Positions 41,807 to 51,163 of a stretch of DNA of 64,000 nt are shown here, piece after piece. Below the pieces are notes generated by a model. That model was not told the origin of the DNA, searched no databases, and saw only the letters and a program-made list of their open reading frames with translations. The translations under genes and the position numbers were made by a program. The DNA is from Flavobacterium sp. KS-LB2 (GTDB lineage: Bacteria > Bacteroidota > Bacteroidia > Flavobacteriales > Flavobacteriaceae). Every line of letters begins with the position of its first letter. Position 1 is the first letter of the stretch. The DNA lies in assembly GCF_036895565.1 (NCBI RefSeq), contig NZ_CP145904.1:434001-498000 (forward strand), given 5' to 3'.

Positions 41807-42898
41807 CTAGTATAAAGTTATCACTCTTAATTTTTTCTCTTTAGGAATGTATTCAAATACGATTGTTATTTTAATTGTTTTACTAACTTTATTTAAAAGT
41901 TCAATTATTATGACAAATTTTAAAACATTATGTTCTTTTGAAACGGTCATGTTATATATGTAATTGCTGTTGATTTTACTTTGGATAATATCAATTAATT
42001 CTTCTTTTGAATATGTGATTAAGTTTGCTATTTCTAGTTTGCCAGTTTTTTCGGTTTTTAAGTATTCGAGTTTATCTTCATTAATCTCAATTATCTCTAT
42101 TTTTGAAATGAGTGGACTCATTGAATTTAATGAGAAATTTAAATCACATTCAAAACCTTTAATGATTTCTCGTTCGATTTTATAGGAAAGAAAGACTCCA
42201 TAATATGACTCTTGTATGCTTTTGATTATAAAATTTGATTCTTCAAATTTATAACCCAAAATATTTATGTCTTCATTGTTATTTCTATCATCTTCGTGAC
42301 TCATTATGATATTTTTATCTTGTTTTATAAAAATATTTACAAGCATTGTGGATAATAATGATTTAATAGGAGATTGGTTTGTTAAGTTGAAATAACCAAT
42401 GAAAGATTGGACTTCTTTTAGATTTTCAATAAAATGATTAAATCTTTGATTTGATAAATTGTTAATGTAAACAATATAGAATTGAGTTGAATGTTTATAT
42501 TCAATGTCTTTTAATTGACGGATTTCTTTGAAGAAATGATAATATAACATTTTTTGGTTTTCATTGGTACCTATGTAATCACCACAGAGTATACTATGAG
42601 AACTTTTCTCATCAAAAAGAGGAATTATATTATTAAATATTTCTTTACCATACCAATTATTTTTTATTTTAGAAGTGTCAAATATTAGTCCTATTTCTTT
42701 TCTGTCACTTTGAGGTATCAGACATTTTTTTAGTTTTGAATATTCTAAATTCTTGGATTTTAGAATATTATTTAGAGTGTTGAACATTTTAGTGATCTCT
42801 GAATGCATTATTTCATCATTTAGTTGGAAATATTCTTTAGTGATTTCTAATAGCATATTTCCTCTAGCATTCAATGTGTAAATAGTTTTCTCAATCAT
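41807..42898 (-). CDS. Unrecognised orphan protein, AT-rich
   Basis: This 363-residue protein has no signal peptide, no membrane segment and no motif I recognise. It is rich in Asn, Ile and Lys, uses many AT-rich codons, and has a long N-terminal helical region (about 1-60). The sequence shows little of the Ala/Gly content of its neighbours, suggesting horizontal acquisition. It stands alone, between tRNA-Glu and a structured repeat, on the strand opposite its neighbours. I offer no function; a defence or regulatory cargo protein is one untested idea. Confidence 0.6.
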   Translation of the reverse strand: MIEKTIYTLNARGNMLLEITKEYFQLNDEIMHSEITKMFNTLNNILKSKNLEYSKLKKCLIPQSDRKEIGLIFDTSKIKNNWYGKEIFNNIIPLFDEKSSHSILCGDYIGTNENQKMLYYHFFKEIRQLKDIEYKHSTQFYIVYINNLSNQRFNHFIENLKEVQSFIGYFNLTNQSPIKSLLSTMLVNIFIKQDKNIIMSHEDDRNNNEDINILGYKFEESNFIIKSIQESYYGVFLSYKIEREIIKGFECDLNFSLNSMSPLISKIEIIEINEDKLEYLKTEKTGKLEIANLITYSKEELIDIIQSKINSNYIYNMTVSKEHNVLKFVIIIELLNKVSKTIKITIVFEYIPKEKKLRVITLY

Positions 42899-42988: not shown

Positions 42989-43111
42989 GACCCGCGTGAA
43001 GGATGGCAGTGAAAATCCTTTTATGAAGCGCAGCGCAATAAAAGATTATAACGAACAGCCTGACCCGAAGTTGCTAGGAGGGACGACAGCGCCATCTGGA
43101 GGGACACGCCC
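42989..43111 (-). repeat. Structured intergenic repeat, copy A
   Basis: Read on the minus strand, the blocks GGGCGTGTCCC, CGGGTC, GCTGT, TCTTTTAT, ATAAAAGGAT and CCATCCTTCACGC occur in the same order as copy B. Between TCTTTTAT and ATAAAAGGAT lies an imperfect hairpin with TTTTAT/ATAAAA arms. It lies in the gap between the orphan gene (starting at 42898 on the minus strand) and tig. Confidence 0.8.
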
Positions 43112-43191
43112 AAATTATTTTCCTTTTCTAACCTCTGATTTTGTCAAATAACTGCCTAAAATTCAATCCCGAAGGTTCAGTACTAAAAAGC

Positions 43192-43222
43192 TTGTTTGGG
43201 TTGCAAAAATTTTATAATTTTG
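43192..43222 (+). promoter_or_regulatory. Promoter of tig
   Basis: TTG (43192-43194), 20 bases, TAATTTTG (43215-43222). The -7 element lies 35 bases before the tig start. Confidence 0.65.
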
Positions 43223-43256
43223 CAACCCAATTTTATTATGTAAATTAAAGAAGAAG

Positions 43257-44582
43257 ATGGATATCAAAAGAGTAGCAATAGACGCTGTGAATGAAACAAT
43301 TGTAATGACTGTTGTTCACATGGATTACAAAGGACAAGTTGCAAAAAGAATAAACGAAAAAATGCCTTTGGCAACTGTTAAGGGATTTAGAAAAGGAGCG
43401 GTGCCTAAAGATCTTGTTGAAAAACAATACGGTAAAAAAATCAAAGAAGAAGAAGTTCAGAAAGTGGTTGATTTAGCATTGGAGCGTTTTGTACAATCAG
43501 AAAGATTAAACCTTCTTGGAACGCCACTTCCTAAAGTAAACGAAAATTTTTCTTGGGATGCTGAAGAATTGGTTTTTGAATATGAAATTGGTTTGGTACC
43601 AAACTTCACTTTAGACTTAGAGGCTAAAAACGACATCGTAAAATATGTGGTTACTGCTGACGATAAATTAATCGACGGTCAAGTGGAAAGAATTCAAAAA
43701 CAATTTGGAACTGCAATTCCTCAAGAGGTTGTTGCTGCAGATTCGGATGTGACAGGAACATTCACTAACGAAGAAAAAGGAATTAATAACGCTACCACTA
43801 TTGCTGCTGATCTTTTCAAAGACAAAGCGACTTTTGACTTGTTCATAGGTAAAAAAGTAGGTGATGTAGTGACTGTAAATACGAAAGGTTTATTTGAAGA
43901 CGACCACCAATTGATGGACGTGATGAAAGTAAGTCATGATGATGTTCACGGTTTAGATGTTGATGTAAACTTCACAATCGAAGCAATCAACACTGCTGAA
44001 TTAGCAGAATTAAACCAAGAATTGTTCGATAAATTGTTTGGAGCTGGAGCAGTTTCTTCACTTGAAGAATTGAAAGCAAAAATCAAAGAGGATGCTGAAA
44101 ATCAATTTGCACAACAAGCAGACCAAAAATTATTAGGTGATGTTACTGAGTTCTTAATCGAAAGCACAAAATTTGATTTACCAGCTGAATTCCTTAAAAA
44201 ATGGTTGCAAACTGTTGGTGAGAAAAAATTATCTCCTGAGGAAGCTGAAGTAGAATATGCACGTTCTGAAAAAGGATTGCGTTTTCAATTGATCGAAGGT
44301 AGAGCAATGGCTCAGTCTGACATCAAAATCACTTTTGAAGATTTGAAAACATTCACTACAAAAAATATCCGTCAACAAATGGCGCAATTCGGGCAAACAA
44401 ATCCTACTGACGAAGAAGTTCAAGGAATTGTAGCTAGAGTTTTGTCTAACCAAGACGAAGTGAAAAGACTTTCTGACCAAGTTGTTGCTGAGAAATTATT
44501 GGAATTGTTCAAAGAAAAAGCAAATCCTACAACTAAAGAAGTGACTTACGAAGAATTTATTGCTGCTTCTTACGGAGAATAA
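43257..44582 (+). CDS. tig: Trigger factor
   Basis: The ribosome-associated chaperone that meets nascent chains at the tunnel exit. The 441-residue protein starts with the ribosome-binding domain, whose signature here is VKGFRKGAVPKDLVEKQYG (around 40-60; the GFRKGxxP motif). The PPIase region follows (about 150-250, weakly conserved in this family) and a helical C-terminal domain. It lies upstream of clpP and clpX, the usual tig-clpP-clpX neighbourhood. Confidence 0.96.
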   Translation: MDIKRVAIDAVNETIVMTVVHMDYKGQVAKRINEKMPLATVKGFRKGAVPKDLVEKQYGKKIKEEEVQKVVDLALERFVQSERLNLLGTPLPKVNENFSWDAEELVFEYEIGLVPNFTLDLEAKNDIVKYVVTADDKLIDGQVERIQKQFGTAIPQEVVAADSDVTGTFTNEEKGINNATTIAADLFKDKATFDLFIGKKVGDVVTVNTKGLFEDDHQLMDVMKVSHDDVHGLDVDVNFTIEAINTAELAELNQELFDKLFGAGAVSSLEELKAKIKEDAENQFAQQADQKLLGDVTEFLIESTKFDLPAEFLKKWLQTVGEKKLSPEEAEVEYARSEKGLRFQLIEGRAMAQSDIKITFEDLKTFTTKNIRQQMAQFGQTNPTDEEVQGIVARVLSNQDEVKRLSDQVVAEKLLELFKEKANPTTKEVTYEEFIAASYGE

Positions 44583-44590
44583 AGTATTGT

Positions 44591-44620
44591 CGTAAAGTCA
44601 AAAGTCATAAAGTCAAAAGT
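44591..44620 (+). repeat. AAAGTCAAAAGTC direct repeat after tig
   Basis: TAAAGTCAAAAGTCATAAAGTCAAAAG-type sequence (given in two parts: TAAAGTCAAAAGTCA and TAAAGTCAAAAG) lies just after the tig stop. The same word makes an inverted pair before clpX and appears inside the multicopper oxidase gene. Confidence 0.6.
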
Positions 44621-44705
44621 TGAAAAATGGGAATCAAATTTCGTTAGTTGTTTCAAATTTTAAGATTTTATTACAAAGACAAAACAATAAAAAATAGTTA
44701 TATTT

Positions 44706-44739
44706 GAGCGTCAGAAAAAATATTTTTTGGCGCTCTTTT
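44706..44739 (+). terminator. Hairpin terminator between tig and clpP
   Basis: GAGCG (44706-44710) pairs with CGCTC (44731-44735), extended inward by U-G, C-G and A-U pairs through an A-run and T-run, and followed by TTTT. It lies 124 bases after the tig stop. Confidence 0.7.
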
Positions 44740-44753
44740 GTTTGAATTAATTT

Positions 44754-44898
44754 CAGGAGCTAATCCAGCTGTACGTTTCAAGTTTTTTCTTCCGTTTCTG
44801 TTTTTTAAATTCCTGCAAGAGCTTCTTCCAGTCGCTTTGCAAGAATAAAAAAACTAAAAAACGGAATTCAAAAAGCTTTTTACTTCCATCTGGGCTAA
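44754..44898 (+). repeat. Structured intergenic repeat, copy C (variant ends)
   Basis: The element runs from AGGAGCTAATCC to CCATCTGGGCTAA. It shares the blocks GCTGTACGTTTCAAG and TTTTTACTTCCATC with copy A, and its centre is one long imperfect palindrome (TTCCGTTT at 44791-44798 with AAAACGGAA at 44857-44865, and TGCAAG with TTGCA further in). It lies between tig and clpP. Confidence 0.75.
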
Positions 44899-44911
44899 AA
44901 AATAAGACATA

Positions 44912-44943
44912 TTGACATCATTTATAAAGAGGTATGACCTTTG
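44912..44943 (+). promoter_or_regulatory. Possible promoter of clpP
   Basis: TTG (44912-44914), 21 bases, then GACCTTTG (44936-44943), one base away from TANNTTTG. It lies 48 bases before the clpP start. Confidence 0.4.
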
Positions 44944-44991
44944 CATTAAATGGAATCACAAGATATAACGTAAAACTTAGAACAAAAAAAT

Positions 44992-45666
44992 ATGAACTAC
45001 GGTAAAGAATTTAAAAAATTTGCTACAAAGGACCACGGTGTAAACTCCATGTATTACGATAAAATCGTAGGCGCAATGACTCCTAAAAACATGACTCCAT
45101 ATATCATCGAAGAACGTCAGTTGAATATTTCACAATTAGACGTTTTCTCCAGATTGATGATGGACAGAATTATATTCCTTGGAACAGGAATTGATGACCA
45201 AATCGCAAACATCGTTCAAGCACAGTTATTGTTCCTTGAAAGCGCCGATGCTTCTAAGGATATTCAAATTTATTTGAATTCTCCAGGCGGAAGTGTTTAC
45301 GCAGGATTAGGGATTTATGACACAATGCAATACATCAAGCCAGATGTAGCGACTATTTGTACAGGAATGGCAGCTTCTATGGGAGCGGTGCTGTTATGTG
45401 CAGGAGCTGCAGGAAAACGTTCGGCTTTGCCACATTCAAGAGTAATGATTCATCAACCATCAGGAGGAGCACAAGGAGTTGCTACTGATATGGAAATCAA
45501 CTTACGCGAAATGTTGAAACTGAAAGATGAGTTATACAAAATTATCTCGCACCACTCCGGACAAACTTTCGATAAGGTTCATACTGATAGCGAACGTGAT
45601 TATTGGATGATTGCTGAAGAAGCAAAAGCATACGGAATGATTGATGAGGTTTTAATAAGAGGATAA
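44992..45666 (+). CDS. clpP: ATP-dependent Clp protease proteolytic subunit
   Basis: ClpP forms the tetradecameric serine protease chamber that works with ClpX. The 224-residue protein has the catalytic Ser in GMAASMGAVLL and the catalytic His in MIHQPSGGAQG, with a Pro-Gly-Gly pattern in NSPGGSVYAG. It is a little longer than E. coli ClpP because of an N-terminal extension. It precedes clpX, with a repeat in the 87-base gap. Confidence 0.97.
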   Translation: MNYGKEFKKFATKDHGVNSMYYDKIVGAMTPKNMTPYIIEERQLNISQLDVFSRLMMDRIIFLGTGIDDQIANIVQAQLLFLESADASKDIQIYLNSPGGSVYAGLGIYDTMQYIKPDVATICTGMAASMGAVLLCAGAAGKRSALPHSRVMIHQPSGGAQGVATDMEINLREMLKLKDELYKIISHHSGQTFDKVHTDSERDYWMIAEEAKAYGMIDEVLIRG

Positions 45667-45670
45667 ATTA

Positions 45671-45747
45671 TTAGTCGAAAGTCAAAAGTCAGAAAGTCAA
45701 AAGCATTGCTCAGACTTTACGACTTTTGACTTTATGACATTAGACTA
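45671..45747. repeat. Inverted AAAGTCAAAAGTC repeat between clpP and clpX
   Basis: TTAGTCGAAAGTCAAAAGTC lies at the left end and GACTTTTGACTTT plus GACTAA at the right, imperfect inverted copies able to form a hairpin. It fills the gap between clpP and clpX and could be a transcript processing or pausing site. Confidence 0.6.
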
Positions 45748-45753
45748 AAAGGA

Positions 45754-46986
45754 ATGGCAAAAGTAGTATTAGAGTGTTCGTTTTGTGGAAGAAAGAAGCC
45801 AGAAACCAATTTATTGATTGCTGGAATCAATGCACATATTTGTGATAAATGTATCGAACAAGCTCACGGAATTGTTTTAGAAGAATTAAAATCCAGCGGA
45901 AGTTCAAAACTGGTTGGTGATTTGATTTTGAAAAAACCAAAAGAAATCAGAGCGTTCTTAGATCAATATGTAATTGGACAAGACCAAACTAAAAAAGTAA
46001 TGTCGGTTGCGGTTTACAATCACTACAAACGTTTGATGCAACAGCAATTAGACGATGAGGTTGAGATTGAAAAAAGTAACATCATCATGGTGGGACAAAC
46101 AGGAACAGGAAAAACATTGGTAGCTAAAACCATTGCAAAAATGTTGGATGTGCCTTTAGCTATTGTTGATGCAACAGTTCTTACGGAAGCAGGTTATGTT
46201 GGGGAAGATGTCGAAAGTATTTTGACGCGTCTTTTGCAAGCTGCTGATTATGATGTTGCCAAAGCAGAACGTGGAATTGTATTCATTGACGAAATAGATA
46301 AAATTGCTCGCAAAAGTGACAATCCGTCTATTACGCGTGATGTTTCTGGTGAAGGGGTGCAACAAGCATTATTGAAATTATTGGAAGGAACAGTTGTAAA
46401 TGTGCCACCAAAAGGAGGACGCAAGCACCCGGACCAAAAATTTGTTGAGGTAAATACGCAAAACATTTTGTTTATCGCCGGTGGTGCTTTTGATGGTGTC
46501 GAAAGAATTATTTCAAAACGATTGAACCGTCAAGCTGTTGGTTATTCGACTTCAAAAAATGTGGATAACATTGACAAAGACAATTTGTTGCAATACATTA
46601 TTCCAAAAGACATCAAAGATTTTGGATTGATTCCGGAGATTATTGGTCGTTTGCCAGTTTTGACACACATGGATCCTTTAGACAGAGAAACCTTGCGTGC
46701 AATTTTGACACAGCCTAAAAATGCGTTAATCAAACAATACGAGAAATTGTTTTTGATGGATGAAGTAACGTTTACTATTACAGATGAAGCCTTAGATTTT
46801 ATTGTGGATAAAGCCTTAGAATATAAATTAGGAGCTCGTGGATTGCGTTCATTATGCGAAGCAATTTTAACGGATGCTATGTATGAATTGCCAAGTTCTG
46901 ATGATAAAACATTAGAAATTGATGTGGAGTATGCTAAAGAAACATTGAATAAAAATTTATTGAAACGTTTGGAAATTGCATCATAA
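45754..46986 (+). CDS. clpX: ATP-dependent Clp protease ATP-binding subunit ClpX
   Basis: ClpX unfolds substrates and feeds them to ClpP. The 410-residue protein has the N-terminal zinc finger CSFCGRKK...HICDKC, Walker A GQTGTGKT (about residue 113), Walker [10 protein letters not shown] and the pore and sensor segments typical of ClpX (GARGLRS at about 360). The start is ATG at 45754, 5 bases after the repeat. Confidence 0.97.
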
Positions 46987-47010
46987 AAATTGCGATTTTC
47001 TCAAAAAAAC

Positions 47011-47043
47011 AAACCTGTTCATTCATTTGAACAGGTTTTTTTA
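47011..47043 (+). terminator. Terminator after clpX
   Basis: AAACCTGTTCA (47011-47021) and TGAACAGGTTT (47028-47038) form a perfect 11-bp stem with a 6-base loop, followed by Ts. Confidence 0.92.
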
Positions 47044-47148
47044 TTTGTAAATTACACTATTTGTTATTGTTCATAAAAAGGGGGATTATTTTTTTTTATC
47101 AACGTCAGATTGTCGATTTTTGTCCATTCTAAATCAAATAATTATAAA

Positions 47149-48387
47149 ATGCAAGTAGAAGATATAGAGGTTATTTTACTAAAAGTTTCAGGTCAGGATA
47201 AACCGGGTGTAACTGCAGGTTTGACATCTATTTTGGCGAATTATGATGCTATTATTTTAGATATTGGACAAGCAGATATTCACGATACGCTTTCTTTAGG
47301 TATCTTATTTGAAATAAAAGCGGGTTCTTCTTCCGCTCCTGTTTTAAAAGATTTATTGTTCAAAGCCTATGAATTGGGTGTGAAAGTTAAGTTTATACCA
47401 ATTTCTATTGCGGATTATGAAATATGGGTCAAAGGACAACGCAAACAACGCTATACCATTAATGTTTTGGGTGAAACCTTAACAGCAGTTCAATTGGCAG
47501 CTGTCACTAAAATATTGTCGAACCAAAATTTGAATATTGATGCAATCAAAAGACTAACGGGGCGAGTTTCTATTATTGAAAAGGAAGAATTTCCACGTTC
47601 TTGTATTCAATTGTCAGTGACAGGAACTATCGTTGACAAATCCTTTATGACAGCTAGTTTTATGGAAATTTCTAGAACTTTAGATGTAGATATTTCGTTT
47701 CAAGAAGACAATATGTACCGAAGAAACCGCCGTTTAGTGTGTTTTGATATGGATTCAACCTTAATTCAAACGGAAGTAATTGATGAATTAGCAGAGTTAG
47801 CGGGTGTGGGTGAGCAAGTTCGTGCTATCACAGAATCGGCGATGAATGGTGAAATTGATTTTAGCGAAAGTTTCAAGCAACGTATGGCTTTGCTAGAAGG
47901 GTTGAGTGAAGATGTGTTGCAATCCGTTGCTGAAAATCTGCCTATTACAAAAGGCGCGCATCGCTTGATGAAAGCCTTGAAATATTATGGGTACAAAACG
48001 GCTATTCTGTCCGGAGGTTTTACCTTTTTTGGGAAGTATTTGCAAAAAGAATTAGGTATTGACTATGTTCACGCTAATGAATTAGAAATAAAGAATGGTA
48101 AGTTAACGGGTAACTATCTTGGTGAAATTGTTGATGGTAAAAAGAAAGCGGAATATCTAAAAGCGATTGCGCTAAAAGAAGGGATTCACATCAATCAAAC
48201 TATCGCTGTTGGTGATGGTGCTAATGATTTGCCGATGTTGAATTTGGCAGGTTTAGGAATTGCTTTTCATGCTAAACCTACCGTAAAAGAGAAAGCAGAA
48301 AGTTCGATTTCCAGTTTAGGATTGGATGGTGTTTTGTATTTGTTGGGCTATCATGACAGGCATATCGATATGATGGAGGAGGAGTAA
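47149..48387 (+). CDS. serB: Phosphoserine phosphatase with N-terminal ACT domains
   Basis: SerB makes serine from phosphoserine. The 412-residue protein has two ACT-like regulatory domains (about 1-90 and 95-180) that usually bind amino acids, then a HAD domain with the nucleophile motif FDMDSTLIQTE and GDGANDLPML. The ATG at 47149 starts at the ACT domain; the track's earlier in-frame start adds a short unconserved stretch. It is preceded by the clpX terminator. Confidence 0.95.
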   Translation: MQVEDIEVILLKVSGQDKPGVTAGLTSILANYDAIILDIGQADIHDTLSLGILFEIKAGSSSAPVLKDLLFKAYELGVKVKFIPISIADYEIWVKGQRKQRYTINVLGETLTAVQLAAVTKILSNQNLNIDAIKRLTGRVSIIEKEEFPRSCIQLSVTGTIVDKSFMTASFMEISRTLDVDISFQEDNMYRRNRRLVCFDMDSTLIQTEVIDELAELAGVGEQVRAITESAMNGEIDFSESFKQRMALLEGLSEDVLQSVAENLPITKGAHRLMKALKYYGYKTAILSGGFTFFGKYLQKELGIDYVHANELEIKNGKLTGNYLGEIVDGKKKAEYLKAIALKEGIHINQTIAVGDGANDLPMLNLAGLGIAFHAKPTVKEKAESSISSLGLDGVLYLLGYHDRHIDMMEEE

Positions 48388-48411
48388 AATACTGTAATAA
48401 TCAGATGAAAG

Positions 48412-48447
48412 GCTATCCCTTAAATTACTTTTTGGATAGCTTTTTTT
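48412..48447 (+). terminator. Terminator after serB
   Basis: GCTATCC/GGATAGC (48412-48418 with 48434-48440) is followed by seven Ts. The T-run ends in the stop codon region of the convergent small lipoprotein gene. Confidence 0.8.
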
Positions 48448-48595
48448 ATACTTTAACGGTAAATTTTTTTTCAGGTTTTTCCAATGTTTGTTTTTCGGGA
48501 GATTTGCAAATTCCTCTCGCACCACAACTCATTCTGTGTGGTCCGCAGGAGCTCAGAAAAAGTAGCGTTATCAAGATGTAGAAGGTGTTTTTCAT
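48446..48595 (-). CDS. Small lipoprotein (49 residues), Cys-containing
   Basis: The minus-strand ATG at 48595 gives 49 residues: a hydrophobic signal (MKNTFYILITLLFL), the lipobox LSSC (Cys17), further Cys at 24 and 30 (RMSCGARGICKS) and a Lys/Glu-rich tail. It starts 12 bases after the GH3 stop, so it is probably the second gene of that transcript. I recognise no named family. The short length makes it easy to miss, but lipobox and spacing support it. Confidence 0.7.
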   Translation of the reverse strand: MKNTFYILITLLFLSSCGPHRMSCGARGICKSPEKQTLEKPEKKFTVKV

Positions 48596-48607
48596 CTTTT
48601 CCATTTT

Positions 48608-50131
48608 TTATGCTGTTTGAAACTGCATGCTTTTCAATTGTTCCAAATAATCCCTTTGGTTGGATAATCTTGGAATTTTGTGTTGACCGCCCAGTTTGTC
48701 ACGATCTTTTAACCAATCGTAAAACAAATTTTTCCGTGCTACATTAATTACTAACGGATTCAAAGTCATGTTGTTGTAGCGTTTCGCCTCGTAGTCAGAA
48801 TTTAAGGATTGAATGGCTTCGTCTAATGCTTTTTGAAATTGAGATACATCTGTGGGAGTGTCTTTAAATTCAATCATCCATTCGTGAGCGCCTTTCTCTT
48901 TGCCTTTCATGAAAATAGGAGCAACGGTATAATCGACTACTTCAGTTTGGGTAAGTTTACACGCTTTGGCTATAGCCTGATCCGTATTTTCGACCATCAA
49001 TTCTTCACCAAAAACATTGATATGATGCTTGGTTCTGCCGGTAACCCGAATTCGATACGGATTCAATGAGGTGAAACGAACGGTATCACCAATCATATAA
49101 CGCCATAAGCCAGAGTTTGTCGTGATGACCAATGCGTAATTTTTGAACAATTCTACATCTGCCAATCGGATTGTTTTTTGATCTGGTGTTCCAAAAGTAT
49201 CCATTGGAATAAATTCATAGAAGATGCCGTAATCCAGCATTAGCAATAAGTCGCTCGAATAATTCAAATCCTGAATGGCAAAAAAACCTTCAGAGGCATT
49301 GTATATTTCGTAGTATTTAAAATCTTTTTTAGGGAGTACTTTTTTGTACTGTTCTCGGTACGGTTCGAAATTTACGCCTCCGTGAAAGTATACTTCCAAA
49401 TTGGGCCAAAGTTCGAATAGATTTCCTTGTCCGGTTTCTTCCAGCATTTTATTCATTAAAACTAACATCCAAGAAGGAACCCCTGCGAAACTGGTTACGT
49501 TTTCGTTTTTGGTTTCGTTTATAATCGCTGCAATTTTGGTTTCCCATTCGCTCATCAAAGAGGTTTTATTGCTTGGCGTACTGCTGAATTCCGCCCAAAT
49601 AGGCATGTTTTCGATTAGTATCGCTGATAAATCTCCAAAGAACGTATTGTTATCTTCATAAATTTGGGAACTTCCGCCAAGACGCAAGCTTTTTCCAAGA
49701 AATAGTTCGGAATCTTCATTGTTATTCAAATACAAACACAACAAATCCTTACTTCCTTTATAATGACAATCTTCTAGCGCTTCGTTGCTTACCGGAATAA
49801 ATTTACTTTTGGCATTAGTTGTTCCACTGGATTTGGCAAACCATTTTATAGGTGTTTCCCAAAAAACATTTTGCTCGCCCTTGCGGGTTCTTTCAATCAA
49901 TGGTTGTAATTCTTCGTAGGTTGAAATAGGAATTCTTTCGGCAAAAGTCGCATAAGAATGTATCGAAGCAAAATCATATTCTTTGCCTAAAGCAGTGTTT
50001 TTTGACGACTGTAATAAATTCATAAGCAATTCTTCTTGAACCTCATTTGGATATTTCAAGAAAAGTTCGATCTGATGAATTCTTTGTTTGAGAACCCAAG
50101 AGGCAAACGAATTGATTATGGTTAGTGGCAT
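48608..50131 (-). CDS. GH3 auxin-responsive promoter family protein
   Basis: A 507-residue ANL-type acyl-adenylate enzyme of the GH3 family, which in plants joins amino acids to hormones. The characteristic ATP-binding motif SSGTTNAKSKFIPVS (around residue 108) and YNASEGFFAIQD (about 278) are present. Bacterial GH3 proteins have unclear substrates. The gene is followed by the small lipoprotein. Confidence 0.92.
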   Translation of the reverse strand: MPLTIINSFASWVLKQRIHQIELFLKYPNEVQEELLMNLLQSSKNTALGKEYDFASIHSYATFAERIPISTYEELQPLIERTRKGEQNVFWETPIKWFAKSSGTTNAKSKFIPVSNEALEDCHYKGSKDLLCLYLNNNEDSELFLGKSLRLGGSSQIYEDNNTFFGDLSAILIENMPIWAEFSSTPSNKTSLMSEWETKIAAIINETKNENVTSFAGVPSWMLVLMNKMLEETGQGNLFELWPNLEVYFHGGVNFEPYREQYKKVLPKKDFKYYEIYNASEGFFAIQDLNYSSDLLLMLDYGIFYEFIPMDTFGTPDQKTIRLADVELFKNYALVITTNSGLWRYMIGDTVRFTSLNPYRIRVTGRTKHHINVFGEELMVENTDQAIAKACKLTQTEVVDYTVAPIFMKGKEKGAHEWMIEFKDTPTDVSQFQKALDEAIQSLNSDYEAKRYNNMTLNPLVINVARKNLFYDWLKDRDKLGGQHKIPRLSNQRDYLEQLKSMQFQTA

Positions 50132-50225
50132 TTTTAAATTATGAATTATGAATTGTGAGTTATAACTTTACCAAAAATAACAAAATTTGTTTAACTGTTG
50201 CGTTAAACCTGAAACTTTAATCACA

Positions 50226-51020
50226 ATGACATACGAAGGTGTACTTACAAAAATGCAAACTGAATTTGGAAACCCAATTCAATATTATTTGGTTTTTGAA
50301 AATAGTTTTTTAAATGTAAATCAGTTGCTGAACAAAAATCTAGAAATTAATTTTGTAGGATTCCAATGTTTGAATTGTGGGAAGAAAAAGAAAATATTCC
50401 GTCAGGGATTTTGTTATGATTGCTTCTATTCAAGTGCGGCTGTTGGCGATTGGATTATGAAACCCGAGTTGAGTACCGCCCATCTTGGGATTCAAGATCG
50501 AGATTTAGCTTATGAAGAAAAAGTGCAATTACAACCTCATATCGTGTATTTGGCTTTATCAAGCGAAGTCAAAGTAGGAGTGACTAGAAAAACCCAAATG
50601 CCAACGCGATGGATAGATCAGGGTGCCACCCAAGCCATCTCGATTGTGGAAGTTCCTAACCGATACTTAGCCGGAATTACCGAGGTAGCGTTGAAAAACC
50701 ATTATGCTGATAAAACCAATTGGCGCAAAATGCTGACGAATAATGTGGAGCAAATTGACTTAATCGCAGAACGATTAAAGGTTGAGAATTTGATTCCAAC
50801 GGAAGTTCAGGAATACTTTTATTCGCAAAAGAATGATTTGTATGAGATGCATTATCCCGTTTTACAGTATCCCACTAAAGTAAATAGTTTGAGTTTAGAT
50901 AAAACACCGCAGTTTCAAGGAAAATTGACCGGAATAAAAGGGCAATATTTACTTTTTGAAGACGGAACGGTTTTTAATATTCGCGGTTCTGAAGGATATG
51001 TGGTACAAATTAATGTATAA
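50226..51020 (+). CDS. DUF2797 domain-containing protein
   Basis: The 264-residue protein from ATG 50226 has a Cys cluster (FQCLNCGKKKKIFRQGFCYDCF, CxxC then CxxC, about 60-82) and a following domain with YLALSSEVKVGVTRK and RWIDQGATQAISI that resembles the DUF2797 family and a GIY-YIG-like fold. The metal site may hold zinc. It is divergent from GH3 and ends at structured repeat B. The ORF start at 50187 is less likely than the ATG. Confidence 0.85.
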   Translation: MTYEGVLTKMQTEFGNPIQYYLVFENSFLNVNQLLNKNLEINFVGFQCLNCGKKKKIFRQGFCYDCFYSSAAVGDWIMKPELSTAHLGIQDRDLAYEEKVQLQPHIVYLALSSEVKVGVTRKTQMPTRWIDQGATQAISIVEVPNRYLAGITEVALKNHYADKTNWRKMLTNNVEQIDLIAERLKVENLIPTEVQEYFYSQKNDLYEMHYPVLQYPTKVNSLSLDKTPQFQGKLTGIKGQYLLFEDGTVFNIRGSEGYVVQINV

Positions 51021-51031
51021 GTACATGTATT

Positions 51032-51163
51032 GGGGCGTATCCCATTTGAAAAAATAAGAAAAATATTTTTTCAAATGGGTCGGGTCGTCCGCTGTATCTT
51101 TTATGGCTCTCGCAAAAAAACGAGAGCCATAAAAGGATGCCGCTTCCATCCCTTACGCAAGAC
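51032..51163 (+). repeat. Structured intergenic repeat, copy B
   Basis: The blocks GGGCGTATCCC, CGGGTC, GCTGT, TCTTTTAT, ATAAAAGGAT and CCATCCCTTACGC match copy A in order. The hairpin between TCTTTTAT and ATAAAAGGAT is a perfect GGCTCTCG/CGAGAGCC stem (51105-51112 with 51121-51128), and an additional CATTTGAAAAAA/TTTTTTCAAATG hairpin lies after the first block. It sits between DUF2797 and AsmA (convergent genes). Confidence 0.85.

Follow-up and report, generated by a model that had tools for sequence, protein, structure and literature searches.

In integron attC sites, structure is kept over sequence, one strand folds, the terminal hairpin is variable, and AAC/GTT boxes are present. Non-autonomous derivatives of IS200/IS605 elements are characterized by a folded single strand and a fixed, short T-rich left border. 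Among the repetitive extragenic palindromes (REPs), those of the CGTC type also lack a dedicated transposase, according to the available part of PMC3733652, and the Flavo-1 motif was listed for Bacteroidetes in a 2010 paper (Weinberg et al., PMC2864571, in excerpt). Here, Flavo-1 is examined starting from three copies (A, B and C) found in a window of 64,000 nucleotides of Flavobacterium sp. KS-LB2 (contig NZ_CP145904.1, positions 434,001 to 498,000 of the forward strand; positions below are those of the window unless a locus is named). With a confidence that stands at about even, we regard Flavo-1 as a dispersed DNA insertion element that folds as a single strand and carries exchangeable hairpins, and not as a conventional small RNA (sRNA). 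A literature search found no paper treating Flavo-1 as a DNA element, and we know of no description of in-place hairpin exchange among dispersed copies for REP or attC elements or for miniature inverted-repeat transposable elements (MITEs).

Identity and Forms of the Repeat

A covariance-model scan of the window with Rfam identified all three copies as RF01705, "Flavo-1", on the strand opposite to that read in the initial annotation of this DNA (hereafter the Rfam strand and the annotated strand). Copy A was matched with 52.8 bits (E 1.4e-8, + strand), copy B with 54.3 bits (E 5.5e-9, − strand) and copy C with 50.6 bits (E 5.7e-8, − strand, match span 44758-44900), all above the gathering score of 42 bits of the Rfam model, for which the window copies were not used in this analysis. 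The three-copy repeat described initially was real, including a third copy that had been left unplaced; the initial annotation had missed that the family is already catalogued, on the other strand. The conserved blocks reported for A and B were seen in the proposed order within the whole elements, at 42992-43114 (annotated strand −) and 51030-51160 (annotated strand +). The scores of these two copies against our own type II model R1 (82.6 bits for A and 78.2 bits for B) are circular, since A belongs to that model, and the B score is likewise regarded as circular.

In the genome of the strain, at least 83 RF01705 matches were found at E ≤ 1e-3, at least 73 of them above the gathering score; these are lower bounds obtained by scoring 150 of 1015 first-look candidates, and copy C was not among the 83. 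The set analysed comprised 84 copies, namely 81 fetched loci of this genome and the three window copies. The elements are non-coding, measure about 80-150 bp, retain the block order in the other genome copies, and occur in two forms. Type I (60/84 copies) has the ends GGAGC...GGGCTA and includes copy C, which lies between tig and clpP (44756-44897, + strand) and bears a long apical hairpin. Type II (24/84) has the ends GGGCGT...ACGC, includes A and B, and presents an additional outer stem and a hairpin, hp1, mostly beyond the 76-position Rfam model. The three-copy repeat of the initial annotation needs correction in this respect, A and B being type II and the third copy type I. A quick motif scanner written for this work lacked specificity at scores under about 35, giving 420 matches at ≥26 in the sister genome G029 against 285 on its reversed sequence, and its matches below that score were not used for counts.

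The long apical arm of copy C contained a sub-motif, GAGCTTC...GGTCGCT, common to L085, L086, L091, L095, L100, L102 and L110 and found also at L081, elsewhere in the KS-LB2 genome. The Rfam scan additionally returned a weak match to a Streptococcus sRNA at 46959-47044 (28.7 bits, gathering score 56), most likely due to chance.

Structure and Compensatory Pairing

The structure of the element and its compensatory pairing were observed directly in the aligned copies. Alignment A1, which held 22 of the 24 type II copies, had 93.4% of its cells paired and 66 double-changed cells against 15.3 after shuffling, and alignment A2, with 34 of the 60 type I copies, had 94.5% paired and 114 double-changed cells against 33.0. 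A phylum-wide alignment of 94 copies from 80 named contigs, which was fitted to the model and whose contigs were found with a pattern fixing some columns, gave 94.9% and 163 against 29.2. In all three alignments, the main covariation measures exceeded every shuffle and the slid controls; a weaker measure, that of further pair types in type II, was reached by 31 of 500 shuffles. The initial annotation had held that chance similarity would be revealed by copies lacking the block order or compensatory changes; both were retained, in agreement with its proposal that selection, or some process, acts on structure.

At single positions, each compared with 2000 shuffles, the n-n' pair was Watson-Crick in 55/60 copies (mean of shuffles 22.6, maximum 36), x-y in 71/84 (29.7, 44), R-Y in 74/84 (55.1, 67) and Y-R in 75/84 (40.4, 55). 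Four pyrimidine mismatches, which are of the G.A type on the Rfam strand, were conserved in 74-77 of the 84 copies. The core structure derived in this way agreed with the RF01705 consensus structure.

In the outer stem of type II (helix 1), pairs 7-10 were double-changed in 1, 3, 3 and 6 of the 22 copies. This stem reads GCGTG/CACGC in copy A, where the 5′ arm at 43105-43109 (− strand) pairs with 42994-42998, and GCGTA/TACGC in copy B, where the arm at 51035-51039 (+ strand) pairs with 51154-51158. Hairpin 1 of copy A (43064-43103, − strand) is variable, with the base CCC...GGG, and corresponds to helix 2 of the type II alignment, while its apical hairpin 2, CTTTTAT...ATAAAAG (43018-43043, − strand), was recovered by the apical-stem and covariation analyses. 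In copy B, both from the sequence and from folding, hairpin 1 is CCCATTTGAAAAAA...TTTTTTCAAATGGG (51041-51079, + strand) and hairpin 2, which was also included in the apical-stem analysis, is CTTTTATGGCTCTCG...CGAGAGCCATAAAAG (51098-51135, + strand). The apical stems were near-perfect, with 869 Watson-Crick pairs, 10 G.T and 11 A.C in the 77 stems tallied from the 84 copies, five copies and two weak stems being left out.

The two strands were not equivalent in folding, as compared in all but 7 of the 84 copies. With parameters for single-stranded DNA (ssDNA), the Rfam strand was the more stable in 59/77 copies (p 8e-9) and formed the core helix in 35 copies, against 2 on the other strand; with RNA parameters, it was the more stable in 49/77, and the core helix was formed in 35 against 17.

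Insertion Sites and Hairpin Replacement

T-runs were directly observed at the borders of the elements. At least four T of five occupied positions −6 to −2 in 47/60 type I copies (nearby background 6.6%), and TTT was present in 19/24 type II copies (background 5.7%). The gene on the T-run (left-hand) side was on the same strand in 45 and on the opposite strand in 38 of 83 cases; it lay closer to the element than did the neighbour beyond the far end (median 53 versus 74 bases, n 74, p 0.009), and a gene lay within 15 bases 23 times on the T-run side versus 7 on the other. These strand and distance data indicated that the T-run, whether it follows a stop codon or stands opposite an A-rich leader, marks the site, and not gene direction. 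A strict scan for terminator hairpins at the left border returned 2/84 copies (2/2940 at background positions), so that a location behind terminators is valid, by eye, for some copies only. Upstream of copy C, a terminator-like hairpin of tig with a T-run was recognized by eye at 44706-44742 (+ strand); loci that lack the element have it as well, and at tig such loci still kept the terminator-like T-run. Copy A is adjoined by an ORF of 363 amino acids (41807-42898), for which Pfam returned no match at E 0.001.

Insertion at a gene end was observed in G208, a genome from another class of the phylum, whose sole type II match lay inserted in the final codons of a restriction gene of the DpnII family (L224). 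Homologues of this family end in FLKKELKK or similar, the L224 gene reads on through the element, and the L224-type tail was found in 1 of the 120 homologues listed. Presence and absence at orthologous sites were observed in G029, in which 22 of the 84 sites had both flanks within the fetched 1.146 Mb: the element was present at 18 of them (one degenerate) and absent at 4 (L001, L030, L083 and the copy B site). At the empty L083 site, no duplication was visible other than Ts.

Comparison of the orthologous copies revealed replacement of the apical hairpin, hp2, in place. Fifteen of the 18 sites were scored, L010, L056 and L079 being dropped because their core was poorly placed; by eye, L010 and L079 keep arms or loop, and L056 differs. 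Between the two genomes, the identity of the core had a median of 0.83 (0.66 for unrelated copies), whereas that of hp2 had a median of 0.54, against 0.53 for unrelated paralogues. In 10/15 scored pairs, hp2 was at or below the 95th percentile of the paralogues, and five pairs keep the hairpin. Replacement was clear by eye in seven of the ten low pairs (L002, L013, L015, L024, L033, L049 and L061); L006 and L011 were doubtful placements, and the long hairpin of the window copy C (WC) is probably related in the two genomes. Such replacement bears out the initial suggestion of an element rebuilt by a structure-dependent process. The G029 site of L033 bears a CCACGCCAAAAAGCGTGG hairpin, which in the KS-LB2 genome occurs at L052 and, slightly changed, at L061 and L078; the same hairpin at different sites in two genomes suggests that copies may exchange it. 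A further hairpin module, CGAAGTTCACTGAACTCC...AAGTGAAGTAATCGGGG, was noted by eye within the core 3′ arm of L071, L074, L079 and L080, and the G029 sites of L006 and L079 carry it too.

At the tig site, the element was found in 9/30 loci examined in the genus, although at two it scored under the gathering value, with tig identities of 55-100% and the same orientation between tig and clpP in 9/9. Some copies are therefore old.

Distribution in Genomes and Viral Contigs

Flavo-1 matches were detected in 39/41 genomes of the genus, in agreement with the dispersed family that the initial annotation had anticipated in other Flavobacterium intergenic regions. With at most 87 candidates scored per genome, the count ranged from 0 to at least 86, two genomes having no match and two having one. 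Type II matches occurred in at least 37/238 genomes and at least 20/118 genera of the phylum (15 candidates per genome scored). Named carriers include Flavobacterium, Chryseobacterium, Epilithonimonas, Lutibacter, Pedobacter and Chitinophaga, and metagenome-assembled genomes (MAGs) of Cyclobacteriaceae and Bacteroidales, besides one Spirochaetaceae MAG.

A 17-base motif was found on 57 viral contigs and the full element on 11 of them (13 matches); viral scans with longer patterns gave no match. Among these carriers is a microvirus, with the capsid PF02305 and the replication protein phrog_942; on its 4.4 kb contig, a type II-like element (L268:3367-3466) lies directly upstream of the replication gene. 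Another is a Mu-like phage with three copies (phrog_310, phrog_296). The other viral carriers are viral by database label alone, and some may include host DNA.

DNA Element or Structured RNA

RNA stems tolerate G.U pairs. In Flavo-1, 10 G.T and 19 A.C were counted among 1130 cells, and 14 and 28 among 1930 cells phylum-wide. Controls drawn from the same or related genomes contained G.U in 29/282 pairs of 13 tRNAs and in 31/432 pairs of 29 thiamine pyrophosphate (TPP) riboswitches (alignment A5, 29 of the 30 fetched loci), with 13.1% in a subgroup of 18. Among changed-but-paired cells, the wobble share in Flavo-1 was 0.04-0.06 when read on the annotated strand, or 0.07-0.14 for the Rfam strand, compared with 0.34 in TPP riboswitches overall and 0.36 in one of their subgroups. 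Structures chosen by RNAalifold on the Rfam strand had G.U at 3.0% (type II) and 2.2% (type I). In a transcriptome of F. psychrophilum, the available part of PMC9723704 places Flavo-1 matches sense or antisense of transcribed regions alike, and many in none. Wobble scarcity, strand folding and this placement together favour a structure at the DNA level, without proof; the wobble statistics and the placement would speak against an RNA function, with the exceptions given below.

The element might still be an RNA transcribed from the Rfam strand, either a small RNA or one that binds protein, and kept by selection on RNA structure, which we consider unlikely though a serious contender. The initial annotation had named a small-RNA family among its options, and this is also the published reading, RF01705 being filed by Rfam as type sRNA. 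The strong covariation suits it, as do the mismatches of the G.A type, a usual feature of internal loops in RNA, and the four variable core pairs, in which the Rfam strand has 16 G.T against 5 A.C. Some F. psychrophilum copies lie in 5′ leaders, but transcripts were not consistently related to Flavo-1 (PMC9723704, in the part available). Wobble is, moreover, scarce in the stems and unbiased in the apical ones, the elements flank genes on both sides and in both orientations, and copy A sits in a divergent gene gap, outside both promoters as read by eye, so that RNA fits less well than a DNA element. A host-functional DNA site, in which folded single strands would serve replication or chromosome upkeep (e.g., priming or protein binding) and dispersal would be only past, appears rather improbable to us. 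The long retention between tig and clpP in a single orientation, the good folding of one strand only, and the copy directly upstream of the microvirus replication gene agree with such a role; the variation in copy number within the genus, down to genomes with one copy or none, and the lack of an overall replication-strand bias do not.

Mobilization as a REP or bacterial interspersed mosaic element (BIME) by a REP-associated tyrosine transposase (RAYT, of the Y1 type), another option of the initial annotation, was found very unlikely. Flavo-1 consists of intergenic hairpin repeats, the genome holds two Y1 genes, and Bacteroidetes TnpA-REP genes of subclass 2.6 are described as flanked by atypical secondary structures (PMC6006769, in excerpt). 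However, these two Y1_Tnp (PF01797) genes, the only ones of the genome (L031:1396-1950 and L032:1396-1950; C1 about 2372400 and 89900), have at their flanks, by eye, not Flavo-1 but another hairpin repeat, GGYGCTCGTTTGCAACGAGYRCC ... TAGCGTTTGCAACGCGG, with which they form a candidate for the true REP-RAYT pair of this genome. The genomes G004, G029 and G030 have 70-86 Flavo-1 matches each without a Y1 match, and RAYT mobilization was left unsupported both in the KS-LB2 genome and in the 41 genomes of the genus. Chance-like AT-rich palindromes and terminators, finally, hardly merit belief: this AT-rich DNA abounds in T-runs and simple hairpins, but the Rfam E-values of 5e-9 to 6e-8 and a covariation beyond shuffles and slid controls speak against them.

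Several observations weigh against a mobile, single-strand-folding DNA element. No ORF family recurred more than 4 times beside the 84 copies and no mobilising gene was found; the largest recurrent neighbour group, with a response-regulator-like domain, accompanied at most 4 copies. The Y1 count did not track the Flavo-1 count across the 41 genomes (Spearman 0.08, p 0.64). The initial claim that the intervals fold in both A and B held for B, which was more stable than shuffles on its two strands (z −8.6 and −8.7), but copy A as a whole was not (z 0.91 and 0.31). The clean-looking empty site at L083 relies on a 6-nt right-hand match, the persistence at the tig site suggests retention for function, and blastn searches of PLSDB and INPHARED with copy A as sole query gave no match. 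Regarding wobble, a TPP subgroup of 11 has G.U at only 0.6% and a wobble share of 0.09, RNAalifold-chosen structures on the annotated strand have G.U at 12.9% for type II and at 5.5% for type I, and a T.G pair that runs through a class, in 26/29 class-2 copies, lies outside the structure used for the wobble test. By hand tally, there was no overall replication-strand bias, the leading side holding 36/60 type I and 11/24 type II copies; type I orientation was 16:5 on one replichore and 20:19 on the other.

In G182, which has four clustered type II copies, a phage-integrase-family gene (L223:7492-8832) lies beside one of them; as a mobiliser it was rejected, without recurrence in the loci looked at.

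Proposed Mechanism and Comparison with Known Systems

In the DNA-element model, the Rfam strand folds, as ssDNA, into a helix whose internal loops are conserved, with G.A-type mismatches around two variable Watson-Crick pairs, and which bears the variable apical hairpin hp2; the type II fold gains the outer stem and a second variable hairpin, hp1. The elements sit immediately 3′ of short stretches of T in non-coding DNA. The folded strand may be recognised by a trans-acting recombinase or transposase, and hairpins may swap among dispersed copies through recombination or by template switching, with the conserved core blocks as anchors. A more far-reaching version, which we put forward only tentatively and think doubtful, is a Bacteroidota mobile system of ssDNA in which the folded strand, with a strand-polarising internal loop, would be the substrate of an enzyme, insertion would occur 3′ of T-runs, in phages and even ssDNA phage included, and the hairpins would be cassettes exchanged in place.

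If the DNA model is true, a family long catalogued among RNAs without a known function would have to be understood as DNA that is mobile or exchangeable, which would explain why RNA sequencing gave no clue in the available part of PMC9723704 and would caution that covariation by itself is no proof of RNA function. In-place hairpin replacement offers a case in which turnover that preserves structure can be tested, and the T-run border and gene-end insertion are handles for finding the enzyme.

Flavo-1 resembles integron attC sites in that structure outlasts sequence, a single strand folds and the terminal hairpin is variable. However, its ends are GCGTNA/TNACGC or AGC/GCT, AAC/GTT core boxes are not in the type I or type II consensus, its copies are not excised gene cassettes, and no integrase array was noticed, no search aimed at the integrase family having been made. 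With the IS200/IS605 derivatives it shares the folded single strand and the fixed, short T-rich left border, but no relation to TnpA was found, and there is no left/right end pair around cargo. With regard to the terminal inverted repeats and target-site duplication of MITEs, its ends pair by 3-6 bp only, and Ts were the sole visible duplication at the empty L083 site. REP, BIME and RAYT-associated elements are, like Flavo-1, intergenic, multicopy, hairpin-forming and devoid of their own protein (PMC3733652 and PMC6006769, both in excerpt). The unpaired GTAG/CGTC tag at the hairpin foot, as defined in the available part of PMC3733652, is not in the consensus ends GGAGC...GGGCTA and GGGCGT...ACGC, and Flavo-1 differs further from REPs and BIMEs in being longer, in its three-way-junction form, in having no Y1 link, and in combining conserved cores with replaced hairpins. 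Finally, the window copies share with the Flavo-1 RNA motif the core helix, the internal loops and the apical hairpin, and the element described here departs from that motif in the extra outer stem and hp1 of type II, in the favoured DNA-level structure, in the T-run border, and in the replacement of its hairpins.

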